Virus record (IMG/VR): IMGVR_UViG_3300021142_000091
Location: 1 to 36,171 of that record
Origin: a virus
Length of the DNA stretch: 36,171 nt
Reading direction: 5' to 3' (one strand)
Under the pieces are notes generated by a model. That model was not told where the DNA came from and did no database searches. It saw only the letters and a program-made list of their open reading frames with translations. A program made the translations under genes and the position numbers. Positions 2,659 to 29,095 of this stretch are shown one piece after another. Within the stretch, counting starts at the first letter, position 1. Each line of letters starts with the position of its first letter.

Positions 2659-4200
2659 TCAATCATCTTCTAATTCTGACTCTAATTGTTTAATCTCATT
2701 GAGTATTTGTTTAAGTTCTTCTTTCTTTTTCATCATTATCCCTTTATTCTTTTTTCTATCTGTATAAACATCAATTAACATATTTATTGTTGGTGATATA
2801 TTTTTAAAAAAGACACATCCATTATTACATATAACCACATTATCAAAATCAATTTCAGTTCCATTTGAGCAAAAGTTTTTATTATTTGGATCTTGAATTC
2901 CTACAAAATTTTCGGGGGAAATGTAAAATTGAATCTGTGTTCTTGGATATAGAGAAGCAAAGTCGTAGCAAACACACCATTTGTTCATTCCAACAATTGG
3001 GTCTTTAACAAATCCACCTTCTATTGTCCCTTCATCACTACCCTCTTTTTCATCATCTTTAAATATGATAGCGTTCATTTGATCTTTAAATCTATGTCTT
3101 AAAACTCCTTCCGTAATAGCTAATGTACCTAAATTATTTTTAGCTTTAGATAATACATCAGTAATTTTTATTCTTGATAAAGAACTTATCGCATAAATAA
3201 TAGAGATATAGTTTTTGGCATCATGTATTTTTTGAACTAACACGGAATCCACCGCATTATAATACATGAAAGTTTCAAAATCATCTTCATATAATTTTTG
3301 TAAAGAACCATTATATTTAATTTTCTCTAAACCAATTAATTTATTAGATACAAATTCTAATTTAGAAGATTCTTTAATCTTAATTGTAGTATCACAGATT
3401 TCATATAACTGCATATAGTCAAAAATCATTTTATGTGCAGGCATTTCATAATCTTTCAACCAAATTTTATTCATTTTTTTGGTTGGAGATGCTACAGCAG
3501 GATCAATAGTTATTTCTTTACCATTGATTTTCTTTTTTAATTTTCTTGACCTATTAACTAAATAAATCCAGTCATAGTTAACGAAGTTCCATCCTGTCAT
3601 AACAGACATTTTTGGAACCATCGTATTAAAAAAGTTATACATCATATCAAATTCTGAATCGTATTTAACATACTTAAACTTATATGTTGTTCCTAACTTT
3701 TTAAAGTATTTATTAGTATTATCTAATATACGTGTTTGTGTTTCACTTGATAAGTCTTTTAATCCTAAAAGGATTATTTTATCTTCATAAACAATAGATA
3801 TAGAAAGAACTTTTGTAGCTGCTCCTTCTTTAATTACATTTCCTGCTTCATCTTTTATATCAGCTGCTTCGGGAAATCCATCTACTATTTCAGTTTCAAT
3901 ATCTATAAAATAGATATTGGGTAAATTAAATTCAAAGATTTCTTCTCTTTCATTTTCTGGAAGAGTGTCTAAAAACTCATAAATAGAATATCTATTTGGG
4001 TATGGAGAATCTACTAATTTAATAGATTTACCATCCCATGATTTATATTTTTGATCTTTTTCAGGGTCTTCATCGTCACAAACTACGTATTTTTTGGGAT
4101 TTGGCCATTTATAGTATTTTAGTTTAATATTTCCTGACTTATCTACATAGGAAACTACTAAATTTTTTGTACTTGGTAGGTATTGAGTATCAACTAGCAT
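2659..4200 (-). CDS. 43: Family B DNA polymerase, N-terminal half (exonuclease plus motif A); split gene
   Basis: 513 aa, against about 900 for T4 gp43. Exo I is FIDIETE (D100, E102), Exo II is GWNFVNYDW (about 203-211) and Exo III is YNAVDSVL (D318), so the 3'-5' proofreading domain looks intact. Palm motif A is CYDFASLYPR (D413 to R420), followed by the T4-like continuation with ISPENF. The protein then ends in a Lys/Glu-rich helix (about 483-513). Motif B (KxxxNSxYG) and motif C (DTDS) are absent, so this product cannot polymerise alone. The other half must be encoded elsewhere, or the polymerase is non-functional. Downstream sits a GIY-YIG endonuclease. Split gp43 is known in some T4-like phages such as Aeromonas phage 25. 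The start ATG at 4198-4200 gives the usual MLVDTQYLP-type beginning. Confidence 0.9.
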   Translation of the reverse strand: MLVDTQYLPSTKNLVVSYVDKSGNIKLKYYKWPNPKKYVVCDDEDPEKDQKYKSWDGKSIKLVDSPYPNRYSIYEFLDTLPENEREEIFEFNLPNIYFIDIETEIVDGFPEAADIKDEAGNVIKEGAATKVLSISIVYEDKIILLGLKDLSSETQTRILDNTNKYFKKLGTTYKFKYVKYDSEFDMMYNFFNTMVPKMSVMTGWNFVNYDWIYLVNRSRKLKKKINGKEITIDPAVASPTKKMNKIWLKDYEMPAHKMIFDYMQLYEICDTTIKIKESSKLEFVSNKLIGLEKIKYNGSLQKLYEDDFETFMYYNAVDSVLVQKIHDAKNYISIIYAISSLSRIKITDVLSKAKNNLGTLAITEGVLRHRFKDQMNAIIFKDDEKEGSDEGTIEGGFVKDPIVGMNKWCVCYDFASLYPRTQIQFYISPENFVGIQDPNNKNFCSNGTEIDFDNVVICNNGCVFFKNISPTINMLIDVYTDRKKNKGIMMKKKEELKQILNEIKQLESELEDD

Positions 4201-7878: not shown

Positions 7879-8055
7879 ATGGAAAAAATAATCAAAGCAA
7901 CACCATTAACACAAGAAGAAATAACACTTCTTAGAGAGCAATATGTAATAGAATATGCTAAGAAAAAAGGATGGGATTCAAATAAACTTTCAACTACACA
8001 ACTTTTAGAAATTGTAGAATCAAAAGGTTATAAGCATCCCATGATTTTAGGTTAA
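7879..8055 (+). CDS. Small hypothetical protein, 58 aa
   Basis: I use the ATG at 7879 (MEKIIKATPLT). The longer upstream reading would run into the glycosylase gene on the other strand. It is helical and charged, with segments TQEEITLLREQ and TTQLLEIVES. Its stop overlaps the end of the convergent peptidase gene. No family recognised; possibly a small regulatory protein, but nothing shows this. Confidence 0.55.
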   Translation: MEKIIKATPLTQEEITLLREQYVIEYAKKKGWDSNKLSTTQLLEIVESKGYKHPMILG

Positions 8056-9161
8056 AATGGTAAAATTTCATCAGTTAAATGTTCATATGGTATGGTAGAT
8101 AATTGAGATATATAAGGTATAAAATAGCTACGATTTCCTACGAATTCATAAGCTTCTTCTGTTCTTATATAACAATCTCTACCATCCCATACGACACTAA
8201 CAAAGTTAGTTCCCCAATTTTCTAATTCTTTAGCTAATAGAGATTTTTCTTTTTCTATCCAAGTATCAGAAATATACATTTTTTTACGAACTCCATTTTC
8301 TTTAATATAAGTATAATTTAAATCAAAGAACTCAGAATATGTATTATCATAACCTGCAAAAGCTTCAAAAACATCTTCATCATTTCTACTAGAGTAGTAA
8401 TTACTATATGAACTAGTTGCTTTTGTATTATCTCTAGTTATTTTTAATGATTCCCAATCAATTCTTACAACAGCTTTACATAATTTGTATAAATAATCTA
8501 TATCTTGTCTTTCACAAGTTTTGTGTTCATCATAATAACCAACAGATATATTTGTACATTCAGGTATATCCCACATAAACTGTGCAGAGTCAGTTAAAAC
8601 ACCTGTATCATCAGGTTTCATTTCTAATCCATTAGCATTTAATAAAGAGCATAATTGATTAACAAATTGAGATGAACAACAATCGCTATATAATTGACTT
8701 GTAATTACGGAAGTTGTTCCTTTTCTATCAAAAGAAATTACTTTATTAATATTATATAATTCTATCGGTATTTCTTCAGATCGATTAGCTAAGGCTGAAG
8801 AAACTTTGGAAGAACCTATACATCCAACTTCTTCACTTAAGAAAAAATAGTATAAACCAGGGATGTTTTTTTCTATCATATATAACATAACAGTCATACC
8901 TGCTTTATCATCAGCACCTAAAATTGTAGTACCATCAGTTTTAATAATATTTTTTTCAAACCGATGTTTTACTTTTTTAAATTCACTACATGCTGTATCT
9001 AAGTGGCATGTAAACATAGTTGTTGATTCTCCTATCATTAGGTAATAGTTGCCATAAATATCTTTTTTATAGCAAGTTGGTAAATATTTTTCCAACATAA
9101 ATTCAAAACCTGACGGGTAGGTAAAGCTTGTTAACTCAAGAAATGTTTTTCTTACTTTCAT
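8052..9161 (-). CDS. PepT-like (M20/M28/M42-type) dinuclear zinc aminopeptidase, copy 1
   Basis: 369 aa. The metal ligands can be read in order: FTCHLDTA (His, Asp), TILGADDKAG (bridging Asp), SEEVG (Glu-Glu base and ligand), SFDRKG (Asp) and YYDEHKT (last His). TDGTTILGADDKAG is very close to the tripeptidase T signature. The family removes N-terminal residues from peptides in the cytoplasm. About 60 residues near the C-terminus (about 300-369) do not belong to the peptidase core. A second copy lies at 13594-14862, with the same motifs and similar spacing, so this is a duplication within the phage. A TTTG-N20-TATATTTG promoter lies just upstream. Phage peptidases of this type are unusual; the substrate is unknown. 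Confidence 0.88.
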   Translation of the reverse strand: MKVRKTFLELTSFTYPSGFEFMLEKYLPTCYKKDIYGNYYLMIGESTTMFTCHLDTACSEFKKVKHRFEKNIIKTDGTTILGADDKAGMTVMLYMIEKNIPGLYYFFLSEEVGCIGSSKVSSALANRSEEIPIELYNINKVISFDRKGTTSVITSQLYSDCCSSQFVNQLCSLLNANGLEMKPDDTGVLTDSAQFMWDIPECTNISVGYYDEHKTCERQDIDYLYKLCKAVVRIDWESLKITRDNTKATSSYSNYYSSRNDEDVFEAFAGYDNTYSEFFDLNYTYIKENGVRKKMYISDTWIEKEKSLLAKELENWGTNFVSVVWDGRDCYIRTEEAYEFVGNRSYFIPYISQLSTIPYEHLTDEILPF

Positions 9162-13593: not shown

Positions 13594-14862
13594 ATGATAA
13601 TAGAGAAAAATTTAGTGGAAATAATTCAAAACATTGATAGTCCTTTAAGTAAAACTTTTCTAAAATTAGAAAAGTTAAATCTTAATTCTATAGTACAACT
13701 ATCAAGCAAAGATTGGCATTTCCAAGTAGTAAACGGTAAGAAAAAAGAAACCGTAAAAATGTTTAAATTTATCAATACTTATTTCCCAAATAAGTTTGAA
13801 AAAGATGAAGTTATTAGTTTTTGTGAAAAAATTATAACTAATTCTAAACCTAAACAAGTTACTTCTAAAATAGAGCCAAGACCTTTTAAATATGAACCTC
13901 TTAATGTAAGAGATACATTTATTTCATTAGTTACAGAAACTTATCCTCATGGATTTGAAGATGAAGTTTTGGCTTATCTTCCACAAGATCTAGAAATAGA
14001 TGATTTTGGTAATTACTATAAAGTAATTGGTAATTCTGAAACAGTTTTCACGAGTCATTTAGATACTGCTTTAAGAGAAAAATCTGGTATTAATTTATAT
14101 TCGTTCTTTGTTAAAGAACAAGAGTTTATTAAAACAGATGAAACAACTATATTAGGTGCTGATGATAAAGCAGGAGTTACTATCATGTTATATATGATAG
14201 CTAATAATGTTCCTGGTTTATACTATTTCTTCTTAGGTGAGGAAAGAGGTGGTATTGGGTCTAAAAAAGTTGCTAATGATTTTATAGATAATCCACTTTT
14301 AAAGGGTAAAAAAAGGATGGTATCTTTTGATAGAAAGAATTATTATTCTATCATAACATCTCAATTAGGAGAAGCTTGTTGTTCAAATGAGTTTGCAGAT
14401 GGATTATGTAATGAATTAAATAAAAGTGGTTTACATATGAAACCTGATGATACAGGTATCTTTACTGACTCTGCTAATTTTGTGGATTACATTCCTGAAT
14501 GTACTAATATTTCTATTGGTTATTTCAACGAGCACACTCATAAAGAGATTCAAAATATTTCTTATTTAGAAATATTGGCTAAGTGTTTAGTTGATGTAGA
14601 TTGGGAAAACTTACCAACTGCTAGAAAAGCGGGTATTAGTGAACAATCTATAATTAAACATGGTGACAAAATTAAGAAGTTAAGAAAGTTAGGTATTAAA
14701 AATACACTTCATATTAAGGAGTTAAAGGGTAATTTATATACTATTTTAGAGGTAGATAATAAAAATCCTATGGGAATATATGAAGATTTATCTCTTTTAA
14801 GAGAAACTTTAGGAAGTATAGATTTAAGATTTTACAATTCAAATATTTTAATAAAATTATAA
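13594..14862 (+). CDS. PepT-like (M20/M28/M42-type) dinuclear zinc aminopeptidase, copy 2
   Basis: 422 aa. The peptidase core starts around residue 105 and has FTSHLDTAL, TILGADDKAG, GEERGGIGS, SFDRKN and YFNEHTHKE, the full ligand and base set of the family. The first ~100 residues are an extra domain not present in copy 1 at 8052-9161. Over the core the two copies share long identical runs (ILGADDKAG, MLYMIA/E, PGLYYFFL). It heads the plus-strand group that runs through the tiny tailed genes; its stop shares a base with the next start (TAATG). It may process peptides in the phage-infected cell; substrates unknown. Confidence 0.87.
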   Translation: MIIEKNLVEIIQNIDSPLSKTFLKLEKLNLNSIVQLSSKDWHFQVVNGKKKETVKMFKFINTYFPNKFEKDEVISFCEKIITNSKPKQVTSKIEPRPFKYEPLNVRDTFISLVTETYPHGFEDEVLAYLPQDLEIDDFGNYYKVIGNSETVFTSHLDTALREKSGINLYSFFVKEQEFIKTDETTILGADDKAGVTIMLYMIANNVPGLYYFFLGEERGGIGSKKVANDFIDNPLLKGKKRMVSFDRKNYYSIITSQLGEACCSNEFADGLCNELNKSGLHMKPDDTGIFTDSANFVDYIPECTNISIGYFNEHTHKEIQNISYLEILAKCLVDVDWENLPTARKAGISEQSIIKHGDKIKKLRKLGIKNTLHIKELKGNLYTILEVDNKNPMGIYEDLSLLRETLGSIDLRFYNSNILIKL

Positions 14863-15121: not shown

Positions 15122-15337
15122 ATGAATACAATTAATGTAAAAATACAAACATATAGAATTATTGGCGGTCTTAGAGATTGTATTAAATTATTTTTACAAG
15201 AAACTAAAGAACAAGTATTAACTTTAGAAGTTTTAGAAAAATATAATTTTGAAGAAAAAGATTTATATGATATGAAACTAACTAAATCAAAAATAAGAGA
15301 TTTTAAAATTAATAAAATATTAAAATTATGCCCGTAG
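15122..15337 (+). CDS. Tailed mini-protein 1, 71 aa
   Basis: I choose the ATG at 15122, 2 bases after the previous stop; the longer GTG start at 15068 would overlap that gene. The N-terminus MNTINVKIQTYRIIGG is of unknown origin. From about residue 35 it has the module common to the array: a helix with VLEKYNFEEKDLYDM, then SKIRDFKINKILKLCP. The tail Arg lies 13 residues from the end, one more than in the others. Stop and next start overlap by 10 bases. Member of the shared-tail family; function unknown. Confidence 0.7.
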   Translation: MNTINVKIQTYRIIGGLRDCIKLFLQETKEQVLTLEVLEKYNFEEKDLYDMKLTKSKIRDFKINKILKLCP

Positions 15338-15567
15338 TTTCATTGGATTTCGCAAGTTTATATCCTAGACCAATGGGTGATTTTTCTATGGGAGATGATT
15401 TTGATAAATCTACTAAGTATCTATTAGATAGAAATAAAGATCATGATTATGTAGATCTTTTATTACTTGAAAAGTATGGGTTGGTAACAAGTAGTTTATT
15501 TGATTTTCCTTTTGTTCAAACAAAGGTAAGGGATTATGAGATAAATAAAATATTAGATAGTATATGA
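15328..15567 (+). CDS. Tailed mini-protein 2: family-B polymerase motif A fused to shared tail
   Basis: 79 aa. Residues 3-15 read VVSLDFASLYPRP, the family-B DNA polymerase motif A. The eight residues DFASLYPR are identical to D413-R420 of this phage's own polymerase, but six of eight codons differ, so this is not a recent copy of that gene. The rest, from about residue 25, is the array module (KYLLDRN, LLLEKYGL) ending VQTKVRDYEINKILDSI. Nothing else of the polymerase is present, so it has no enzyme activity. It overlaps the next gene by 4 bases (ATGA). Confidence 0.8.
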   Translation: MPVVSLDFASLYPRPMGDFSMGDDFDKSTKYLLDRNKDHDYVDLLLLEKYGLVTSSLFDFPFVQTKVRDYEINKILDSI

Positions 15568-15806
15568 GTGATATAATCAGGCAAGAACTTAAAAAAGTAA
15601 TAAATAGTTTTTATGGAAGAAATCCCGATATAGAAACTAATTTTACTAAATCTATAAAGTTTTTGTTATCTAAATTGGATGTTAAGTTTATAACATACGA
15701 ATTTGTAGAAAAGATAAAAGAGAAATATGATATAGTATATACGGATTTGTCTGATTTTTCATTAGTTCAGACAAAGGTAAGGGATTATGAAATAAATAAT
15801 ATATTA
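15514..15806 (+). repeat. Two copies of a 42-bp tail-coding repeat
   Basis: 15514-15555 and 15765-15806 encode the tails VQTKVRDYEINKIL and VQTKVRDYEINNIL and differ at 3 of 42 bases. The N-terminal parts of the same two genes are unrelated to each other. The constant ends are therefore young duplicates while the variable ends are not. Confidence 0.85.
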
Positions 15807-15818
15807 AATAAAATATAA
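15564..15818 (+). CDS. Tailed mini-protein 3: family-B polymerase motif B fused to shared tail
   Basis: 84 aa. Residues 8-18 read ELKKVINSFYG, matching family-B motif B KxxxNSxYG, the fingers helix that holds the incoming nucleotide (INSLYG in T4 and RB69). This is the motif missing from the truncated polymerase at 2659-4200. From about residue 28 the array module follows (KSIKFLLSKL, EKIKEKYDI) and ends VQTKVRDYEINNILNKI. No motif C, so no polymerase activity. It comes directly after the motif A protein, in the order the motifs have in the polymerase. Confidence 0.8.
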   Translation: MSDIIRQELKKVINSFYGRNPDIETNFTKSIKFLLSKLDVKFITYEFVEKIKEKYDIVYTDLSDFSLVQTKVRDYEINNILNKI

Positions 15819-15820
15819 AA

Positions 15821-16042
15821 ATGCCTAATATGCCATTACCACATTATGGATATACTTTACCTGGTTTAGAATATATACGTAGTTTAAACATACTTGAATC
15901 CCATGAAGGACCTATTACTTTAGGTTTAGTATTAAAACAATTATCTCTCTATAAAATAGACGAATCTGATTTACATTCTGTTTTTGCATGTAAAACAAAA
16001 ATAAGAAATTATAATTTAGAAAAAATCTTAGAAAGTATCTAA
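15821..16042 (+). CDS. Tailed mini-protein 4, 73 aa
   Basis: Starts 2 bases after the previous stop. The N-terminus MPNMPLPHYGYTLPGLEYI is Pro/Tyr-rich and resembles nothing else in the window; by analogy it may copy a core protein encoded elsewhere. The module follows (LGLVLKQLSLYKIDESDLHS) and ends TKIRNYNLEKILESI, with Arg 12 residues from the end. Function unknown. Confidence 0.7.
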   Translation: MPNMPLPHYGYTLPGLEYIRSLNILESHEGPITLGLVLKQLSLYKIDESDLHSVFACKTKIRNYNLEKILESI

Positions 16043-16073
16043 ACAAAAAAAAAATATTTTTTTATCACTTTAT

Positions 16074-16373
16074 ATGAAAAGTAAAAGTGATTTAAAAATA
16101 AAATATGGTGATAATATTATAGACGAGATAGAAAATAAATTAGCAAAAGAAATATCTAATAGTATTAATAAGAATATTGTAAATACTATTTTTGAAATGA
16201 TACCGGGTAGAGTATATCTACTTTCTTTAGTTGAAAATTCTGATAATAAAGAAGGTGAATTATTTATACTAATGGAAAAATATGGCATTATAGAAGATGA
16301 TTTATATAGTCTTGAAATTGTTAAATCAAAAATAAGAGAATATAATATAGATTTAATCTTAAAAAATAATTAA
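16074..16373 (+). CDS. Tailed mini-protein 5: capsid spine-helix fragment fused to shared tail
   Basis: 99 aa. Residues 14-42 align without gaps with residues 378-406 of the major capsid protein encoded at 22332-24140. There are 11 identities in 29 (I15, E20, L23, E26, S28, I31, K33, I35 and the closing FEM) and most other positions are conservative. In T4 gp23 the corresponding stretch is the long helix after the Asp/Glu-rich segment. From about residue 45 the array module follows (VYLLSLVEN, LMEKYGIIEDDLYSL) and ends SKIREYNIDLILKNN. Start is the ATG at 16074, 31 bases after the previous stop. Confidence 0.75.
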   Translation: MKSKSDLKIKYGDNIIDEIENKLAKEISNSINKNIVNTIFEMIPGRVYLLSLVENSDNKEGELFILMEKYGIIEDDLYSLEIVKSKIREYNIDLILKNN

Positions 16374-16380
16374 CTTTTTC

Positions 16381-16413
16381 GAAAATTTTTAATATATTTG
16401 TATGAATAAAACA
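16381..16413 (+). repeat. Copy of the peptidase promoter region at a gene start
   Basis: Nearly identical to 13550-13582 (GAAAA, T-run, ATATATTTGTAT, AATAAAACA). The TATATTTG box (16393-16400) sits one base before the ATG at 16402. If it works as a promoter, transcripts start inside that gene or are leaderless; it could also feed the tmRNA downstream. Confidence 0.55.
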
Positions 16414-16767
16414 TTAATAATTAATAATCAATATTACAATATATCTTCAAATAATTTTGATATATCTCAAATTGATAATGGATATAGGTACTACGGAAGT
16501 TATAGTAATATAAATAATTTGAATTCATATTCTGATTATTTAACAAATCAATTGAATTCAAATATTCAATACTCTCAGTATACTTATGAACCAATATATG
16601 GAGATGAAATTGAAAGTAAAAAATATTTATTATTATTACATAAAGATAAAAATTTATCAGATATAATGGAAATATATGATTTATCTGAAAAAGATCTTCA
16701 AAAATTGAGTATAGTTAAGTTAAAAGTAAGAGATTATAAAATAAATTTTTTACTAAAACAAGATTAA
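16402..16767 (+). CDS. Tailed mini-protein 6: scaffold-repeat-like segment fused to shared tail
   Basis: 121 aa. Residues 42-63 (SYSDYLTNQLNSNIQYSQY and on) match about 1.5 units of the 14-residue repeat (SYSEYIAENLDKNI) of the protease-scaffold protein at 24222-26432, with the same 14-residue spacing between YS(D/Q)Y units and about 12 of 22 identities. The N-terminal 40 residues are Asn/Ser/Tyr-rich. The array module follows (KKYLLLLHKDKNL, IMEIYDLSEKDLQKL) and ends LKVRDYKINFLLKQD. Last gene before the tmRNA, 29 bases upstream of it. Confidence 0.75.
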   Translation: MNKTLIINNQYYNISSNNFDISQIDNGYRYYGSYSNINNLNSYSDYLTNQLNSNIQYSQYTYEPIYGDEIESKKYLLLLHKDKNLSDIMEIYDLSEKDLQKLSIVKLKVRDYKINFLLKQD

Positions 16768-16796: not shown

Positions 16797-17158
16797 GGGG
16801 ATGAAATGATTTAGATTCATGGAATTAATGGTAGAGATGCAAACATCGGATAATCCTAACCCGATTAATAAATTGGATTAAAGTCTAAACGACAAAACAA
16901 ACACAGTAGCAAGCCGTGAAGAATTAGTAGCCGCTCTACAAAACAACATCTTAAAGGTAAACGAAGTAGCTTTTGCTTAATTGACAAAGTCAGAAAGGTT
17001 TCCAAATAGTTAAAAATCTATTCAAAAATTTTCGGATTTGTTAGGGGGTCGTTAAAAACTAAATTAGTTTGTTATTTTATAAAAAAATAACTACGTTTGT
17101 AAATGAGTTTCTATGATTAACCAGAGAAGACCCGAATTCGCCTTCGGCATCTCCACTA
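16797..17158 (+). ncRNA. ssrA: tmRNA (transfer-messenger RNA)
   Basis: About 362 nt. The 5' end GGGGATG pairs with CATCTCC (17148-17154) in a 7-bp acceptor stem with a G3-U pair, the alanine identity element, and discriminator A at 17155. After it comes CTA, not CCA, so CCA must be added or repaired. A T-arm stem CCGAA/TTCGG closes a loop TTCGCC. The start region (GATTTAGATTCATGG, then ATGCAAACATCGG) is like bacterial tmRNA. The tag frame ends NEVAFA then TAA (16978-16980). If it resumes at GCA (16909), as CAGTA-GCA suggests, the tag has 23 residues, longer than the usual 8-15. tmRNA rescues stalled ribosomes and tags the peptide for proteolysis. No SmpB gene is in the window. Confidence 0.9.
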
Positions 17159-17950: not shown

Positions 17951-18013
17951 ATGAACAAAGATAAAATAGATTTATACAATTTTTTAGTAGATACCCCTTA
18001 CTTTTCTAAGTAA
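17951..18013 (+). CDS. Possible 20-aa peptide gene
   Basis: MNKDKIDLYNFLVDTPYFSK then TAA, 13 bases after the Fe-S carrier stop and 6 before the next tiny gene. It lacks the tail. It may be a real peptide, a leader, or an accident of AT-rich sequence; support is position only. Confidence 0.3.
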   Translation: MNKDKIDLYNFLVDTPYFSK

Positions 18014-18019
18014 TATGTT

Positions 18020-18127
18020 ATGGGAAAGATATTTAATTTTTCTTTTTCTGATATACAATATATCAATAATTTAGAACTAATGGAAAAAAGAAATAAAAAA
18101 ATAGATGATTTATTAAATGAAGATTAG
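18020..18127 (+). CDS. Tailed mini-protein 7, 35 aa
   Basis: ATG at 18020. The N-terminus MGKIFNFSFSDIQYINN is of unknown source. The end LMEKRNKKIDDLLNED has Arg 12 residues from the C-terminus, as in the array upstream, but the helix module before the tail is absent. RNKKID is identical to the tail of the 118-aa protein at 6697-7053. It overlaps the next gene by 11 bases. Too short for standard gene finders; the tail is the evidence. Confidence 0.6.
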   Translation: MGKIFNFSFSDIQYINNLELMEKRNKKIDDLLNED

Positions 18128-18278
18128 TATTGATGAAATAATAACCTATGATATAGTTGCATCTCCAGCACTTACAAACGCCAAACTAGTATATGATGAT
18201 GAACTTAAACAAAAGAAAATATTAGAGGATATGGAGAGAAGAAATAGGATTTTAGATGAGTTATTAAAAGAGGATTAA
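18117..18278 (+). CDS. Tailed mini-protein 8: prohead-protease strand fused to shared tail
   Basis: 53 aa, ATG at 18117 inside the previous gene. Residues 10-17 read TYDIVASP; the phage protease at 24222-26432 has TYDIVADP at 148-155. The DNA shares a 14-base identical run there. Then NAKLVYDDE leads to the end LEDMERRNRILDELLKED, with Arg 12 residues from the end. The stop codon lies inside the hairpin terminator that follows. No catalytic residues of the protease are present. Confidence 0.65.
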   Translation: MKISIDEIITYDIVASPALTNAKLVYDDELKQKKILEDMERRNRILDELLKED

Positions 18279-20612: not shown

Positions 20613-20641
20613 AAAAAGAGGACCTATTTAGTCCTCTTTTT
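20613..20641. terminator. Bidirectional terminator
   Basis: Stem AAAAAGAGGAC/GTCCTCTTTTT, 7-base loop, followed by four more T. It lies between the 174-aa gene (plus) and the capsid-fragment gene (minus). Confidence 0.9.
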
Positions 20642-21121
20642 TTTACCTGTTTTATTTATTGGAGGTATATAATTTGTTGATGTAGATGGGGTAGATGGTG
20701 TAGCGTAAGCATAATCTAAATAAAATAAATTAGGTCTAGAACCTGTTTTATATAACTCATGTTCTTCTTCTTTAAATTCCTCAAATTCTTTGTTTTCTAA
20801 AATAGAATCTAATTTTCTATCACGATTAATGATAGCAACTTCTCGTTTAATTCTTTCTTTTTCCTCTTCTGAATTACCAAAACCTTTCATAGGGTTAACA
20901 GTAACTAAATCTAACCCTATTGTTTGAGCTGCTATTTTTTTAGCAATTGGTAATAAACTAGGAAAAGATTCATTTGATTGTGTACCTACTAATGTAGTAT
21001 CCATATTTATTTCATTTTTTAAATGAAGATTAGCATATTCTGTCATCCAGTTATTTACTACAGATTGTGTAGATGATAAATGATCTAAATCTTTCATATC
21101 AAATTTGAAATTTTCATACAT
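20624..21121 (-). CDS. Partial copy of the major capsid protein (N-terminal region), 165 aa
   Basis: Residues about 18-80 follow the capsid protein at 22332-24140: WMTEYANLHL matches WMAEYAEYHA, and LLPIAKKIAAQTIGLDLVTV matches LLPVAMKIAAQTIGLDLVAV at 91-110. Near the end LFYLDYAYA matches LVYVDFQYD. It then stops in a Thr/Pro/Ser linker and a basic end KKKRTK, so the HK97-fold core is absent. A Glu/Arg-rich insert lies in between. It has its own ATG and open frame. It sits beyond an endonuclease gene that separates it from the true capsid gene. A decoy, a head accessory, or a decaying duplicate are all possible. Confidence 0.8.
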   Translation of the reverse strand: MYENFKFDMKDLDHLSSTQSVVNNWMTEYANLHLKNEINMDTTLVGTQSNESFPSLLPIAKKIAAQTIGLDLVTVNPMKGFGNSEEEKERIKREVAIINRDRKLDSILENKEFEEFKEEEHELYKTGSRPNLFYLDYAYATPSTPSTSTNYIPPINKTGKKKRTK

Positions 21122-22331: not shown

Positions 22332-24140
22332 TTAGTTAAGGTAGCCATTAGCATCGTTAACGTAGATAGTCATAAATTGTTTTTGTGGGAAGAAACCTAA
22401 TTCAGCCACAGCATATCTTGATCTTAAAATCATTCTTGGAGCAAATGTTGCTTCTGACATGATTGAGATAGATTGTGCCATGAGGAATGGCACGAAACAG
22501 ATACCTGGTTGATCAGGATTGTTTTTACGTCCGATTAAGATTCTGTTGTCATTGTATTTCATGTAAGGATCTACGTAGATAGTGATATCACCGATTTGAC
22601 CTACAGGGTACATTTGACCGTTTGTGTTTAATTTAGATTTAAGTGGGTTAATTGTGTAACCTGCAACATCCATTAAAGCTGCTGCTAAACCACCATTTGT
22701 TACCGCGTATTGTGCTGGTCCAACACGTCCTTCAGTTGCGATGTAGTTAGAAGCATGTACCATTTTAGTGATAAGCTTTCTTTGTACAGCGTGTGTAGTT
22801 TCACCACCTGGTCCTGCTTGAACATAAGTTGTATCTAAGTCAAATATAGTTTGACCAGAAATGTTTCCACTTGCTAAAGCTGATGATGAAATAAGTGGAG
22901 CAGAAGATCTGTTTGTATTACCCATTTCAAATACTTTAGCAATAATTTGCTTAGAGATAGTTTGAGAAAGTTCGTTTACAAGGATTGATTCCATTTTTTG
23001 AACGATATCCATACCAGTATTAGCTTTAATATCTTCAATTTCTGTTCTACGTAATGCAGAACTTACTTCTACTGTACCAACTGTAATTGATTTAGAAGAA
23101 ATTTTTGGTCCAATTGTACCTGCATAATTGTTTTCTTCTTCTTGACGAGCCATTGGATATTGTCCACCATTTCCTAAGAAGTTTGTAACATATCCTGGTA
23201 ATTGATCTTCAAGAGCAGATACTAATGAAATACCAGTAACAGATACAGTATATCCAAATAAATTTGTTATAGAAGTTAACATTGAACCCGAAGCGGTACC
23301 TGCATTTGAAACATCAAATGAATTATTTGCTTGGTTTAAACCGTAAAATTGTCCACCACCATATGCACCACCTGCAGCGTTTGTTTCTCTAAAAGCTCTA
23401 AAAATAGGTTGACCATCAATACGAGAGAAACCTAAAAATTCAAGAACTTGATATTTGTTACTAGGGTCTGTTAAACCAGTAGAACTTCCTTGAGAATTAT
23501 TAAGCCCAGCTAATGTAGTTGTTGCCCAAATACCATTAGATTGTGTAACCCCAGCTATCAAATAACCACCTGTTCCAAAAGCAGTAAAAACTCTTGCCCC
23601 TAATGCTAATCCACCTTGTACTTGTTGAATACCAGCTGTTGTTAAAGCTGTAGATATAGCAGTATTAAATGATTGACTTAATCCATTACCAGTTGAAGAA
23701 CCGAATTGAATTTTGAATACTTGTGGTTTTGTATTAAATTGATTAAGATTTAAATCGTCATATTGAAAATCAACATAAACTAAATCAATCTTTGGACCTG
23801 GAGTTGGCTTTACAGCTACTAAATCAAGACCAATTGTTTGTGCAGCAATTTTCATAGCTACTGGTAATAAGTTTTGTCCTAAATCACCTGAACCTATGTT
23901 TGATGAACCATAGTTTGCACCAATTGTTGTACCTGGATAAGTACCAACTTGTGGAGCTAAAACAGCACCCATACCATTTGTAGAAGCGTTAAGGTAAGCG
24001 TTTTCGTTTATTGCATGGTATTCAGCATATTCTGCCATCCATGAATATTTTTCTCTGTCCTCTTTGTTAACACCAATGTTCTCTAAAATTGGAGTCCATT
24101 TGTTAAGAGCTTTTTGTAAGTCAATTCTAACTTGTGACAT
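22332..24140 (-). CDS. 23: Major capsid protein, T4 gp23-like
   Basis: 602 aa, somewhat longer than T4 gp23 (521). The N-terminal ~110 residues contain WMAEYAEYHA and LLPVAMKIAAQTIGLDLVAV, the gp23-type N-terminal segment that is normally cut by the prohead protease; the match IGLDLVAVKP is where mature capsid usually begins to fold. The spine helix region (378-406, ending FEM) follows RRTEIEDIKANTGMD. The C-terminal part has ITIYVDPYM and LRSRYAVAELGFFP, typical of the family. Codon use is more GC-rich than in neighbours, in line with high expression. The protease-scaffold gene lies upstream, as in T4. Confidence 0.93.
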   Translation of the reverse strand: MSQVRIDLQKALNKWTPILENIGVNKEDREKYSWMAEYAEYHAINENAYLNASTNGMGAVLAPQVGTYPGTTIGANYGSSNIGSGDLGQNLLPVAMKIAAQTIGLDLVAVKPTPGPKIDLVYVDFQYDDLNLNQFNTKPQVFKIQFGSSTGNGLSQSFNTAISTALTTAGIQQVQGGLALGARVFTAFGTGGYLIAGVTQSNGIWATTTLAGLNNSQGSSTGLTDPSNKYQVLEFLGFSRIDGQPIFRAFRETNAAGGAYGGGQFYGLNQANNSFDVSNAGTASGSMLTSITNLFGYTVSVTGISLVSALEDQLPGYVTNFLGNGGQYPMARQEEENNYAGTIGPKISSKSITVGTVEVSSALRRTEIEDIKANTGMDIVQKMESILVNELSQTISKQIIAKVFEMGNTNRSSAPLISSSALASGNISGQTIFDLDTTYVQAGPGGETTHAVQRKLITKMVHASNYIATEGRVGPAQYAVTNGGLAAALMDVAGYTINPLKSKLNTNGQMYPVGQIGDITIYVDPYMKYNDNRILIGRKNNPDQPGICFVPFLMAQSISIMSEATFAPRMILRSRYAVAELGFFPQKQFMTIYVNDANGYLN

Positions 24141-24221: not shown

Positions 24222-26432
24222 TTAAATGTTTTTGAATCTTTCTAATATTGATTTGAAATCTGAATCAGATAATTTATCTTCTTGTATTAAACTATCATGA
24301 GAAATCATTTTTTTAGTTGATTCATTCTTTTTTAAGTTTCTAGTTAACCAAAAATGTTCAACTTTAGCTTCTGAATCCAATTCAGGATACAATTTAGCTT
24401 GTGAAAGAATTGATTTTTTAGAACTTTCGTTTGTTACTTCCCAAATTGATTTTATATTTTCTGGCATCAATCTGATTAGTCTTTCTTCTAATGATTCATT
24501 TTTAATAGAAAGTGCTTCTTGTATTAATTTTATAACTTCTGAACTTGTGAAATAACTCTTTTCGTTTATGTAAAGTTTTACTTGTTCTTGCTCTTCGTTT
24601 GTTAAGCTATAGTAGCTATCAACTTGAGACTTGTTTAAAAATTTTAAGAAATGTAGATCGTTTGTTTCAGAAACTTTACGTTTTCTAGCTTCTTCGATTA
24701 ATAAATCTATTTTTTTACTTAAATCTGAATCTGTATTTTTATTTTCGTGTGTTAAATATTCTTCATCTGCTTTAGGTACTTCTGGTAAATCTTCTAATTT
24801 TACTTCTTTACCTAATTCTTCATCTTCAATATCTGCTACGTTTGGAACATCAGTATCAACTTTTTGTTCTTCTGGTAATTCAACTTCTGTTAATTCTGTA
24901 TAATCTAAAGAAACTGGAGTTGCTTCATTATCTTCACCTGCTTTTTCAACACCATCTTCACCATGAAGTTCATCTTCACCACCTTCTAAATAGTTATCTG
25001 ATTTATTTTCAATGTCATTTTCACCAAAACCATATTCTTCTAATGTAGGAATAAGATTTGATTCATTACTTTCAAATAATTTAGTACCATTAACTTTTTC
25101 AGAAATTAAACCTGTATAAGATACAGCTTTATCTAAGTTTTCAGCAATGTATTGAGAATAAGAAATGTTATCATCAAGGTGTTCTGCTATATATTCAGAA
25201 TATTTAATATTACCTTCTAAGTTTTCAGCGATGTACTCAGAATAAGCAATATTACCATCTAAGTTTTCTGCTAAATATTCAGCATAAGAAATGTTTCTGT
25301 CTAAGTTTTCAGCTAAGTATTCTGCATAAGAAATATTTTTATCAACGTTCTCAGCAATATATTCAGAATAAGAAATGTTTTTGTCTAAGTTTTCAGCGAT
25401 GTATTCAGAGTAAGAAATGTTTCTATCTAAATTTTCAGCGATGTATTCAGAATAAGAAATATTCTTATCTAAGTTTTCAGCGATATATTCTGCGTAAGCG
25501 ATATTTTTGTCTAAGTTTTCAGCAACATATTCAGAATATTTAATTGATTTGTTTAAGTTTTCAACTAAATAATCGTTATGTTCGATTAATCTATCAGTTG
25601 TATCTTTAAGAGATTTGTTCTCAGAAACAACAACTTGAATTTTTTCTGCTAAATAATCTAAGTATTTAACAACTTGAGAATTAGTTTTATTTAATTCTTC
25701 ATAGTAGTTTAAAAGTTTTTCTAATTTAGCTGGTTCTAAATTACCAGATTTAAGAGCACTTTTAACTTCTTTTTTAGTTGCAGCAATTTCATTAACTATA
25801 TATTTTGAATAGTCTGACAATTGATCTTTCGTTACGAATTCATTTTTGTTCATGTTAAATAATTCATTTATTTTTGATTCATTTGATACTTCATATATTC
25901 TGAAGTTAGCCTCATTTGAATAATTTAAAGACTCATTTATAGAAGACATTCTCGCAGAAGCAAATCCCGGATCCGCAACTATATCATAAGTAAATAATTT
26001 TTTTAGTGATACTGTACCATCAGCTTCTGTAATACCAGCAGCTCTTGAAGATACAAATATAGGGCAACCATCATCAACTAAAGCCTTAGCTTCTTTTCCC
26101 CAATAGGTATTTAATAATTTAATTTGTCCTTCAACTACATTTTTTTCTTTAACATAATATGCAGTTTTAATTAAATGTGATGCACGGGATAGTGAAGTAT
26201 CGAAAACGTCGGGGTGATCAAACTCACCATATACTACTCCCATAGTTGTAATTCTAGTGTTAAGTTCTTCTAAACAAGGTAAAAATCTTTCAGGAGTATA
26301 AACTCTTTCGTTTCTATTCTTAACCATAAATTCAGTAAAAGTACCGCCTAAAAGATAATCTTTTCTAGCATCTACCCCTTCATTCATCCTTAGAGGATTT
26401 GTATTATTTTCAATGATTAATACTGGCTTCAT
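24222..26432 (-). CDS. 21: Prohead protease (gp21-like) fused to a repeat-rich scaffold-like region
   Basis: 736 aa; T4 gp21 has only about 212. The protease is residues 1-165: VYGEFDHPD holds the catalytic His (H73), PIFVSSRAAG the Ser (S128 or S129), and TYDIVADPGFASA (148-160) is the conserved strand. From about 180 the protein is helical. Residues about 297-437 are ten or so tandem 14-residue units (SYSEYIAENLDKNI), then an acidic segment (450-570) and a helical C-terminus with ESKKSILSQAKLYPE. T4 keeps protease and scaffold (gp22) in separate genes; here both seem joined. The gene directly precedes the capsid gene. Confidence 0.9.
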   Translation of the reverse strand: MKPVLIIENNTNPLRMNEGVDARKDYLLGGTFTEFMVKNRNERVYTPERFLPCLEELNTRITTMGVVYGEFDHPDVFDTSLSRASHLIKTAYYVKEKNVVEGQIKLLNTYWGKEAKALVDDGCPIFVSSRAAGITEADGTVSLKKLFTYDIVADPGFASARMSSINESLNYSNEANFRIYEVSNESKINELFNMNKNEFVTKDQLSDYSKYIVNEIAATKKEVKSALKSGNLEPAKLEKLLNYYEELNKTNSQVVKYLDYLAEKIQVVVSENKSLKDTTDRLIEHNDYLVENLNKSIKYSEYVAENLDKNIAYAEYIAENLDKNISYSEYIAENLDRNISYSEYIAENLDKNISYSEYIAENVDKNISYAEYLAENLDRNISYAEYLAENLDGNIAYSEYIAENLEGNIKYSEYIAEHLDDNISYSQYIAENLDKAVSYTGLISEKVNGTKLFESNESNLIPTLEEYGFGENDIENKSDNYLEGGEDELHGEDGVEKAGEDNEATPVSLDYTELTEVELPEEQKVDTDVPNVADIEDEELGKEVKLEDLPEVPKADEEYLTHENKNTDSDLSKKIDLLIEEARKRKVSETNDLHFLKFLNKSQVDSYYSLTNEEQEQVKLYINEKSYFTSSEVIKLIQEALSIKNESLEERLIRLMPENIKSIWEVTNESSKKSILSQAKLYPELDSEAKVEHFWLTRNLKKNESTKKMISHDSLIQEDKLSDSDFKSILERFKNI
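25122..25544 (-). repeat. Tandem 42-bp repeats inside the protease-scaffold gene
   Basis: About ten consecutive 42-bp units encode the 14-residue motif (S/A)Y(S/A)EY(I/L)AENLD(K/R)NI. Synonymous differences and a few residue changes show the units are maintained at protein level. A 14-residue period fits four helical turns, so a long coiled coil is likely. Confidence 0.92.
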
Positions 26433-26558: not shown

Positions 26559-28376
26559 ATGATTATATCAAAAACTACAAAAATCAAAGTAAATGCGGCT
26601 AATTTCAAACATTATAAACAATTTTATGATCTAATAAAGTGTAATCAAATTATAGAAGTTAAAATAAATGAATTAACTAAAACAAGTAATGCTTTAGTAA
26701 AATTAAAGTGTGATAATTGTGATGTTGAAAAAGAAATAACTTATAAAAATTATACAAGTTATGGTTATATTAATGGGGAATATTTATGTAGAAAATGTAA
26801 ATTAGAAAATAATAATTTAGAAAAATATGGTGTTAAAAATGTTTTTCAAATTAAGGAGGTTAAAAAAAAAATTAAAGAAACTAATTTAGAAAAATATGGT
26901 GTTGAGTTTATATCAAAAAATAAAGAAATACAAAATAAAATTAAGGAAACTAATTTAGATAAATATGGGGTTGAATATTTTCTACAAAATAAAGAAGTTC
27001 ATAATAGAATTAAAGAAACTAATTTCAAAAAATATGGAGTAGAAAATGTTTCCAAATTAGATTTGGTAAAAAATAAGAAAAAAGAAACAACTTTAGAAAA
27101 TTATGGTGTTGAATATAATTCTCAAAGTGATCTTATTAAAAAAAATATAAAACAAACTAATTTAAAAAAATATGGTGTTGAGTCTAATTTACAAAACAAA
27201 GATGTTAAAGAAAAAATAAAGAAAACTAATTTAGATAAATATGGAGTTGATAACTATGCTAAAAGTGAAGAATATTTATTAAAATGTAAAGAAACTAATT
27301 TAGATAAATATGGGGTTGATAATTATAATAAGTCAGAAATCAGTAAAATAAATACTATAATAGGTCAACATCCTAATTATATTAAATATATTGACAATTC
27401 TATATCTTTATTTAAATGTGATTTAAATGAAAATCATGAATTTAAAATTCATGTTGATAATTTTCATAATAGATTAAAAAATAATATACCTTTATGTACT
27501 ATTTGTTATCCCATAGGAGATAACAAATCTATAAAAGAAAAAATTTTATTAGAATATATTCAAAGTATTTATTCAGGAGAGGTTATCTCAGGATATAGAG
27601 ATGGTATAGAAATAGATATTTTCTTACCTGAATTAAACATTGGTATAGAATTTAATGGATTATATTGGCATTCAAATAAGTTTAAAGAGCCAAATTATCA
27701 TATTAATAAACAAATATATTTCAAAGATAAAGGAATTGATATGAAGATGATTTATGAAGATGATTTTGATAAAAATTTTGATATATTAAAGTCTCAAATT
27801 AATAATTGGTTAAGTTTAACTCCAAATAAAATTTATGCTCGTAAAACTGAAGTTAGACAAATTTTAAATATTGAAGAATATAGAAATTTTCTAAATAATA
27901 ATCATATTCAAGGATTCGTAGCGTCTAAATTGATATATGGACTTTATCATCAAGATAATTTAGTTAGTTTAATGTGTTTTGATAAAAAAGAAGGACGTTT
28001 AAATATGCCTGAAAATGAATGGAATTTAAATAGATTTTGTAATTTATTGAATCATCAAGTAGTAGGTGGTGCTTCTAAATTATTAAATCATTTTATAAAA
28101 GAAAATTATCCTTCAAGAATAATTAGTTATGCTGATAAAGATTGGTCTAATGGAAATTTATATTTTTCTTTAGGGTTCAATTTAGTATCAGAGTCTAAAC
28201 CTGACTATAAATATATTATCAATGGGCTTAGAGTTCATAAACAAAACTTTAATAAACTTAAATTAGGTAAAATGGGTCATGATATATTGAATTTATCAGA
28301 ATCTCAAATTATGGAAAATTTAGGTATTGATAAAATATATGATTGTGGAAAAATAAAATTTGAAAAGTATGTATAA
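26559..28376 (+). CDS. Homing endonuclease with KYGV repeats and EFNGLYWHS-type nuclease domain
   Basis: 605 aa. A treble-clef zinc finger (CDNCDVEK, then CRKC, about 50-85) is followed by eight repeats of about 25 residues, each with KETNLDKYGVE or similar, a DNA-reading array. The nuclease has EIDIFLPELNIGIEFNGLYWHS (Asp, then Glu), of the Vsr/EDxHD group. The C-terminal part (GGASKLLNHFI, SYADKDWSNGNLY) is common to these proteins. A sister gene lies at 33792-35480 and a broken one at 28757-29095. It stands between the true protease gene and a dead copy of it. Confidence 0.88.
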   Translation: MIISKTTKIKVNAANFKHYKQFYDLIKCNQIIEVKINELTKTSNALVKLKCDNCDVEKEITYKNYTSYGYINGEYLCRKCKLENNNLEKYGVKNVFQIKEVKKKIKETNLEKYGVEFISKNKEIQNKIKETNLDKYGVEYFLQNKEVHNRIKETNFKKYGVENVSKLDLVKNKKKETTLENYGVEYNSQSDLIKKNIKQTNLKKYGVESNLQNKDVKEKIKKTNLDKYGVDNYAKSEEYLLKCKETNLDKYGVDNYNKSEISKINTIIGQHPNYIKYIDNSISLFKCDLNENHEFKIHVDNFHNRLKNNIPLCTICYPIGDNKSIKEKILLEYIQSIYSGEVISGYRDGIEIDIFLPELNIGIEFNGLYWHSNKFKEPNYHINKQIYFKDKGIDMKMIYEDDFDKNFDILKSQINNWLSLTPNKIYARKTEVRQILNIEEYRNFLNNNHIQGFVASKLIYGLYHQDNLVSLMCFDKKEGRLNMPENEWNLNRFCNLLNHQVVGGASKLLNHFIKENYPSRIISYADKDWSNGNLYFSLGFNLVSESKPDYKYIINGLRVHKQNFNKLKLGKMGHDILNLSESQIMENLGIDKIYDCGKIKFEKYV

Positions 28377-28770
28377 AATTAATTTTGATGATGAAGAAAT
28401 ACTTATTAATTACTTAAATTCGTTTGATAATAAATGGATAAAAAGACGAAAAATCTTAAATGAAATTTTAGAAATTGATGAAGATGATAATTTAAATTAT
28501 TGGGATTTATCTGATAGTGCAACATATGGAGAACTTTTTCATAAAAAATATGATTCTTCCACTAGTTTAAATAGGGTTTCTCATATTGTTAAAAACGTGC
28601 AAAAAATAAATGAGGAATATTTTGCTGAAATTAAAGTATTGAATACTTATTGTGGGAATGAAGCTAAAGGTTTAATTAATGAGGGATTTAGTCTAAAATT
28701 AGAATGTGTTTATCACGAATATAATTCAAAAAAAATAATTAGAATAGATATAAATTATGATAATAAGTAG
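28369..28770 (+). CDS. Partial, serine-less copy of the prohead protease, 133 aa
   Basis: ATG at 28369 (MYKINFDDEE); an upstream TTG is less likely. The sequence follows the protease at 24222-26432: YGELFHKKYDSSTSLNRVSHIVK corresponds to YGEFDHPDVFDTSLSRASHLIK, and IKVLNTYCGNEAKGLINEG to IKLLNTYWGKEAKALVDDG. The His is kept (GELFH), but where PIFVSSRAAG should be it reads FSLKLECVY, so the catalytic Ser is gone. The protein then ends. It overlaps the endonuclease stop by 8 bases. A dominant-negative decoy or decaying duplicate are the options; the frame is intact. Confidence 0.8.
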   Translation: MYKINFDDEEILINYLNSFDNKWIKRRKILNEILEIDEDDNLNYWDLSDSATYGELFHKKYDSSTSLNRVSHIVKNVQKINEEYFAEIKVLNTYCGNEAKGLINEGFSLKLECVYHEYNSKKIIRIDINYDNK

Positions 28771-29095
28771 AGAAATAGAAATAAAAGTAAATAACACAAA
28801 TATAGGTTATTTACATAATTTAGGTTATGAAGTTAAGAGAGGAGAATTATTATCAATTCCAATTGAATTACTTAGTCCTGGTAGTCATTACAAAATAAGT
28901 TGTAAATGCGATAAGTGTGGAATTATTAAAGATATTTTATTTAAAAATTATATTAAATATGGAAATAAATGGGGAGAATATTTTTGTAGAAAATGTAGTG
29001 AAGATAAAAGAAAAAAATCTTTACAATTAAGTCATGGAGTAGATTACCCTATCCAAAATAAAGAAATACGAGATAAAATAAAGTTTAAAAACTAA
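28757..29095 (+). pseudogene. Truncated homing endonuclease (zinc finger plus part of one repeat)
   Basis: 112 aa, starting MIISREIEIKVNN like the 605-aa gene (MIISKTTKIKVNA). It holds the zinc finger (CKCDKCG, CRKC) and the start of one repeat (LSHGVDYPIQNKEIRDKI), then stops. The nuclease domain is missing, so it is a remnant. It may still bind DNA. It converges on the exonuclease gene. Confidence 0.75.

Follow-up and report, generated by a model that had tools for sequence, protein, structure and literature searches.

Polymerase motifs A and B on two mini-genes of a T4-like megaphage: possible cassettes of a protein-mimicry system

Results

The six-gene array and its surroundings

The DNA analysed here (the window) is the entire IMG/VR record IMGVR_UViG_3300021142_000091, a 36 kb (36,171 nt) piece of a T4-like megaphage. 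Its major capsid protein (MCP), encoded at 22332-24140 (-), is approximately 60% identical to the MCPs of LR745206 and LR756502, phages of 635-642 kb that are kin of Mar_Mega_1 (PMC9723777). These two genomes and contigs of several relatives formed the comparison set, together with a sister strain (G001, 82.8 kb, L006; G and L numbers are our handles) that is near-identical to the window phage; a search of a phage collection with the window at the DNA level gave no match. The genomes come from uncultured phages, and ORFs were called mechanically.

Six tandem genes occupy positions 15122-16767 (starts at 15122, 15328, 15564, 15821, 16074 and 16402), and all of them end in one common C-terminal domain of about 50 residues, ...LEKYGxxxxDLxxxxxVKxKVRDYxINxIL. 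A query with one cassette matched four others in the same record, and a profile of the tail raised the total to six. The first gene (15122-15337, +; 71 aa) joins the front MNTINVKIQTYRIIGGL to the tail domain (tail HMM E=7e-24), and the fourth (15821-16042, +; 73 aa) does so with the front MPNMPLPHYGYTLPGLEYI. The front of the fifth gene (16074-16373, +; 99 aa) imitates the spine helix of MCP (DLKIKYGDNIIDEIENKLAKEISNSINKNIVNTIFEM; MCP HMM positions 342-379, E=2e-4; Pfam Gp23 E=0.0056, below the cut-off), and that of the sixth (16402-16767, +; 121 aa) weakly resembles the scaffold repeats. Fold searches with the tail domain in PDB and BFVD returned nothing significant (E>2), nor did a profile search of PDB, and in IMG/VR neither a single cassette nor the tail profile found anything but the sister strain. 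The domain is also found stand-alone, in one copy each in LR745206 and LR756502.

One of two paralogous phage peptidases of the window (8052-9161, -; 13594-14862, +, the second being PHROG 4191) is placed directly upstream of the array. Directly downstream lies a divergent tmRNA-like RNA (16797-17158, +), whose candidate tag ends ...NEVAFA. It matches the Rfam tmRNA model over its full length (1-374) with 25.1 bits (E=2.8e-8), below the gathering score, and was not called by ARAGORN. We regard this RNA as a neighbour of the array and do not claim its membership in the mini-gene system.

The two polymerase-motif mini-genes

The second and third genes of the array, 15328-15567 (+; 79 aa) and 15564-15818 (+; 84 aa), were singled out in an earlier, sequence-only reading as consecutive mini-genes carrying motif A and motif B of a family-B polymerase, and both indeed exist as ORFs with the respective motif. 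The former starts with the motif A peptide MPVVSLDFASLYPRP, followed by the helical tail domain; the latter begins with MSDIIRQELKKVINSFYG and bears the motif B peptide ELKKVINSFYG ahead of its tail, the part KKVINSFYG fitting the family-B consensus. The near-identity of the two tails (gttcaaacaaag... and gttcagacaaag..., 3 of 42 bases differing) was confirmed, as was the codon divergence of motif A: the eight residues DFASLYPR equal those of the phage's own polymerase, with different codons at six of the eight positions. Judged by motif (DxxSLYP or KxxxNSxYG), each mini-gene carries one signature of a family-B polymerase; neither unites an exonuclease domain, a palm domain and all of motifs A, B and C in one chain, as the full enzyme does, and Pfam and PHROG gave no polymerase match in either. 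They resemble the 43A/43B polymerase of the same phage family in the motif A octapeptide and the motif B consensus, but are proteins of 79-84 aa with neither an exonuclease nor a palm domain.

The phage's own polymerase is split. Its N-terminal half, 43A (2659-4200, -; motif A VCYDFASLYPRT), contains a family-B exonuclease domain (Pfam E=5e-8) and matches the PHROG DNA polymerase (E=3e-58); it is followed by a GIY-YIG-like ORF (1615-2613, -). The C-terminal half, 43B, is located elsewhere in relatives and lies outside this contig in the window phage.

The earlier argument against a chance resemblance was borne out, as DFASLYPR is the one case in the window in which a small ORF shares a seven-residue identity with a large protein. 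In pattern scans of the open frames in about 2.9 Mb of DNA from related phages, motif A was found in real polymerases, in the mini-genes of the window and the sister strain, once in an independent mini-gene and once in a 222-codon frame of LR745206, and once antisense. The motif-B pattern K...N[SG]xYG (x = F, L, I, A, T, M or V) occurred only in the 15564 gene and its sister-strain copy. The motif-B match is the weaker evidence of the two, since motif B of the relatives reads LKLVLNGSYGAFA and the 43B half of this phage is not on the contig. A candidate motif B in LR745206 ('NNSYYG' at 255010) turned out to be an MCP stretch.

In three relatives, motif B of polymerase 43B is itself interrupted by inserts of 36-41 nt (G003 45700-45860, G027 near 133941 and G028 near 366514, all on the - strand). 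Each consists of a codon, a stop codon and a GC-rich hairpin (-20 to -24 kcal/mol, z -3.6 to -4.2), placed at LVLNGSY^GAFA, a site that is uninterrupted in LR745206 and LR756502. This layout resembles the translational bypass of T4 gene 60, with imperfect landing codons in two of the three cases.

AlphaFold2, run on a shallow alignment of 11 sequences, modelled the 15328 protein with a disordered motif-A peptide (residues 1-19, pLDDT about 44) and a helical mini-domain predicted with confidence (residues 20-79, pLDDT 84-96). In this 79-aa protein, motif A is predicted to lie in a disordered, exposed segment attached to a folded domain.

Fragments of other core proteins and their turnover

The description of the locus as two polymerase mini-genes was correct as to the motifs and too narrow in scope, both genes being members of an array that copies more than the polymerase. 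Among the source types of the fragments are, besides MCP, the prohead protease/scaffold with YSEYIAENLDKNI repeats (24222-26432, -; named from its sequence character) and a portal-like protein (29926-31662, -; named from sequence and position), which serves as a source in relatives and in the sister strain. Outside the main array, protease and MCP pieces are carried on a tail other than that of the six genes. A second small array comprises 17951-18127 (+; tail LEL..MEKRNKKIDDLLNED), interrupted here by a stop codon and intact in the sister strain (58 aa), and 18117-18278 (+; 53 aa), in which a prohead-protease stretch IITYDIVASPALTNAKLV (protease HMM 141-163, E=0.008 at Z=1000, and 0.003 for the sister-strain copy) is joined to the tail MERRNRILDELLKED. 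The gene at 20624-21121 (-) is an N-terminal MCP fragment (propeptide and N-arm) with an inserted NRDRKLDSILENKEF module, and has orthologues in LR745206, LR756502 and L023. A further gene (28360-28770, +) corresponds to residues 63-125 of the prohead protease/scaffold (E=2e-8). Adjoining it, 28757-29095 (+) encodes a stand-alone N-terminal domain of the homing-endonuclease-like family represented at 26559-28376; this ORF has homologues in most relatives and is under strong purifying selection (dN/dS 0.07).

The sister strain has no 15821 cassette, and its last cassette, at the place of the 16402 gene, clearly reproduces the scaffold repeats YSEYIAENLDKNI (E=6.5e-12), the window gene having a different front only weakly similar to them. 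Loss of a cassette and replacement of a front between near-identical strains indicate that cassettes come, go and swap fronts.

Selection at the protein level

Comparison of the window with the sister strain gave dN/dS values of 0.08 (15328), 0.38 (15564), 0.23 (16074), 0.21 (18117) and 0.36 (20624), that of the 15564 gene coming mostly from its tail; the 15122 gene, with zero synonymous changes, allows no verdict. In the pooled fronts of the 15328, 15564 and 16074 genes, changes had occurred at 12 of 56.5 synonymous and 11 of 258.5 nonsynonymous sites. Where a fragment and its own source have identical residues, the same codon is used in 95 of 197 cases (0.48, compared with 0.61 expected from codon usage; ten comparisons in the window and the sister strain, the portal fragment left out). 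Since this fraction is no higher than codon usage predicts, the similarity is maintained at the protein level.

Purifying selection on the fronts, together with codons unrelated to those of the source genes, indicates that the mini-genes act as proteins and are neither remnants of decay nor decoys at the DNA level. Decay of polymerase or capsid genes was rejected, as dN/dS is below 0.4 in the 15328, 15564, 16074, 18117 and 20624 genes and the codons of the parent are not recognisable. The sequence-only reading had considered that the mini-genes would be mere remnants if longer homologues were full polymerases, or if homologues in relatives lacked the motifs. No longer homologue proved to be a polymerase; motif A is retained in the sister strain, where the initial 30 codons show zero amino-acid changes, and a separate motif-A mini-gene exists in LR745206 (83154-83393, ...GGINMDFASLYPSTQRMHFP...RRKKKIQKVF). 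A role at the DNA level, which the same reading had allowed for, does not agree with the codon and selection data. Its specific forms (homing-site decoy, recombination template, or an artefact of translation initiation or of the promoter of the gene downstream) were discarded because codon usage in fragments and tags is ordinary and, for 36 of the 191 tagged ORFs, the gene that they face runs in the opposite direction. Intron-end read-through was also dismissed, the cassettes overlapping in translation and each having its own start.

Recurrence in other megaphages

The same design is present in megaphages of 630-735 kb, where stretches of MCP, prohead protease/scaffold, portal and polymerase motif A are combined with a lineage-specific short tag: basic tags RKxKIxxIF or RDxKIxxIL, and DPYGEExW in the 735 kb phage LR756501. 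With the basic tag defined as R[KRSNH]x[KR][IL]xx[ILV][FLI] at the end, and fragments as those of MCP, protease/scaffold, portal or polymerase 43A, core-protein fragments were found in 8 of 25 tagged small ORFs and in 13 of 1254 untagged ones (reversed control, 0 of 25); the Fisher p of 1e-9 is partly post hoc, as the idea came from LR745206 and LR756502 and the motif definitions were tuned on the data. Contigs read later yielded further tagged fragments (G027 21341 and 69875, G009 6789) and additional cases at a syntenic locus (G032, G023, G009).

At this locus, a mini-gene made of the C-terminal region of MCP stands beside one conserved gene in 6 of the 12 phages in which that gene was found. 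It is clear by profile in G009, G027 and both complete genomes (LR745206 and LR756502); in G032 and G023 the profile match is weak (E=0.3-0.4), and the assignment rests on synteny and mutual similarity. The basic tag is C-terminal in LR745206, LR756502 and G009, and lies inside a loop in G032, G023 and G027, so that its behaviour is that of a linear motif not tied to one position. Other stretches are reused as well: protease 141-168 in LR745206, L056 and the window, and portal 257-345 in the sister strain, LR756502 and LR756501 with differing tag positions, and in two weaker, partial versions in LR745206.

The MCP pieces of LR756501 bear DPYGEExW in place of the basic tag. This motif occurs in 103 copies in that genome (reversed control, 0) and is absent from seven other phages of the group; it often directly follows a CTS-like N-terminus (MIKKFKLFE...) or is C-terminal. 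In L375, every one of nine tandem genes ends in DPYGEExWE; six contain MCP pieces (one weak, E=0.13), one of these six also a protease piece, with E-values down to 2e-18. Portal pieces in permuted order or with an inserted KNKWWQFWKKD were seen at LR745206 291877, LR756502 316849 and LR756501 near 48367 (L309), and LR745206 599388 ends in a similar NKKWWQFWK. By eye only, resemblances to RNR (front of 83154) and to the TerL Walker-A (308370) were noticed in LR745206.

The tags are not confined to fragment genes. A C-terminal motif of the R-x-x-[KR]-[IL]-x-x-[IVL]-[LIF] type is found at the end of 93 of 976 ORFs in LR745206 and of 88 of 1002 in LR756502 (about 9-11%), its frequency in internal windows being about 0.1-0.2%; a variant of the RDxKIxxIL tag in these phages ends in ...LGI. 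None was found in 50 kb each of T4, PAU and pT24. Codons and the orientation of neighbouring genes show the basic tag to be selected as protein. A Pfam search of 50 tagged proteins identified riboflavin kinase and DUF6011 as the sole matches, most having no known family, and a literature search for such tags or for tagged capsid fragments yielded no relevant description. Whatever their function, lineage-specific tags (more than 100 DPYGEExW in one genome, RDxKIxxIL in others) represent an unexplained genome-wide protein code.

Discussion

The explanation that we favour, at a rough probability of somewhat more than one in three, is that the two genes are cassettes of a megaphage protein-mimicry system whose products act as decoys or competitors docked via their tag. 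It builds on the observed architecture, which comes back with other tags in distant megaphages, and on conservation in place, turnover, and selection at the protein level; the cassettes show sequence mimicry of other proteins, selected at that level, as would be expected of phage decoys. The recurrence of mini-genes with other tails in distant giant phages likewise suggests a hitherto unknown system of this kind. Beside a common tag or tail domain, each small protein would display a short piece taken from one conserved phage protein (polymerase motif A or B, the MCP N-arm, spine helix or C-terminal region, protease, scaffold repeats or portal). The displayed stretch may bind the normal recogniser of that part of the core protein, which could be a host defence sensor or a protein of a satellite or parasite, and the tag might then dock the resulting complex to a common partner. 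The initial proposal of polymerase decoys or dominant-negative inhibitors belongs to the best class of explanation, the motifs being real and selection acting on protein, but is too narrow if restricted to the polymerase: as MCP, scaffold/protease and portal are also copied, a partner of polymerase cannot be the general answer.

The MCP N-arm stretch IAAQTIGLDLVAVKP, which by alignment with T4 gp23 is presumably the equivalent of Gol, recurs in several cassettes. MCP is a known trigger of CapRel and, via the short Gol peptide, of Lit (PMC9712102). The copied set overlaps with known defence triggers, which we count in favour of decoys. On the other hand, MCP/Gol pieces could trigger a sensor instead of blocking it. 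It also counts against decoys that the fronts of the 15122 and 15821 genes, two of the six cassettes, match nothing, that motif B of the 15564 gene is not closest to the motif B of this phage family, and that the tag is found on many proteins with no detected mimicry and thus need not belong to a decoy function. A broader version of the preferred explanation seems possible, if doubtful: megaphages may carry a protein-level 'self-fragment library', arrays of mini-genes that show pieces of hallmark proteins on lineage-specific tags and serve to decoy host immune sensors or phage parasites. The tag, present on about 10% of the proteins of the phage, would then be a docking code valid across the lineage. 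If so, mimicry in the largest known phages would draw on parts of the phages' own core proteins, and the cassettes would name the exact surfaces by which host defences or parasites recognise phages.

Dominant-negative action on rivals and targeting to the virion are serious competitors of the decoy explanation. Core-protein stretches (MCP propeptide, scaffold repeats, portal piece) might address tagged proteins to the prohead or another phage structure, much like the capsid targeting sequence (CTS) of T4, with the tag as payload or sticker. MCP, scaffold/protease and portal are all prohead parts, and in LR745206 and LR756502 an N-terminal signal MK(Y/H)LK(S/T)(F/Y)NE, which we take to resemble the CTS of T4, and the C-terminal tag avoid each other, the tag of LR756501 often following a CTS-like start. 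However, polymerase motifs A and B are not parts of the prohead, motif A spans only about 14 residues, and nothing known makes the C-terminal piece of MCP an addressing region; we consider targeting unlikely. We think it rather unlikely, too, that the pieces of MCP, scaffold, portal and polymerase enter the protein folding or assembly of co-infecting relatives and poison them. The turnover of cassettes between strains would fit such a poison, as would the derivation of fragments from core proteins that assemble or fold, with many positions unlike the phage's own copy; but the carrier would be hit too, the motif-A residues are here the catalytic-motif consensus common to self and rivals, and the genome-wide tag would be left unexplained.

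The possibility that the fragments are debris of homing endonucleases or recombination, left at conserved sites struck by mobile elements and kept by chance, appears very improbable. This phage family does have several homing-endonuclease-like genes, and the stop-and-hairpin insertions of three relatives fall exactly at polymerase motif B. Against it stand purifying selection, the lack of codon relatedness, syntenic conservation across phages and shared tags, and the cassettes have no endonuclease domains in Pfam or PHROG. Remnants of homing endonucleases proper were rejected on similar grounds, there being no GIY-YIG, HNH, LAGLIDADG or EDxHD domain and no DNA relatedness to the target gene. 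Short motif matches arising by chance in AT-rich small ORFs are an even poorer account. Motif B alone comprises nine residues, five of them fixed, and many weak fragment matches are noise; the single motif-B cassette could be fortuitous. For the family, chance is refuted by the independent motif-A mini-gene of LR745206, E-values of other fragments reaching 1e-18, the motif-pattern scan, the seven-residue identity test and the counts of fragments in tagged and untagged ORFs.

Several known systems share some of these features. The Srd/Srh proteins of T4, annotated as postulated sigma-factor decoys, are likewise small and are supposed to work through their likeness to a different protein; they are postulated to imitate host sigma factors, whereas the cassettes imitate the phage's own core proteins, stand in arrays and share a tag. 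The internal head proteins of T4 are diverse and small, carry one short terminal signal (the capsid targeting sequence, CTS), and are clustered and variable between strains. The cassettes are so too, but their signal is different and C-terminal or internal, their variable parts are pieces of MCP, portal, protease and polymerase, and no CTS-type N-terminal signal (MKxYxEFIxE-like) is present at the starts of the array proteins. Dominant-negative protein fragments are a laboratory phenomenon, and a literature search found no natural phage system of them; the cassettes are similarly short pieces that could interfere with the parent protein. Finally, the Gol peptide of T4 gp23, the trigger of Lit (PMC9712102), is also a short MCP stretch recognised on its own, but it is part of the full capsid protein, whereas the cassettes are separate, tagged genes.
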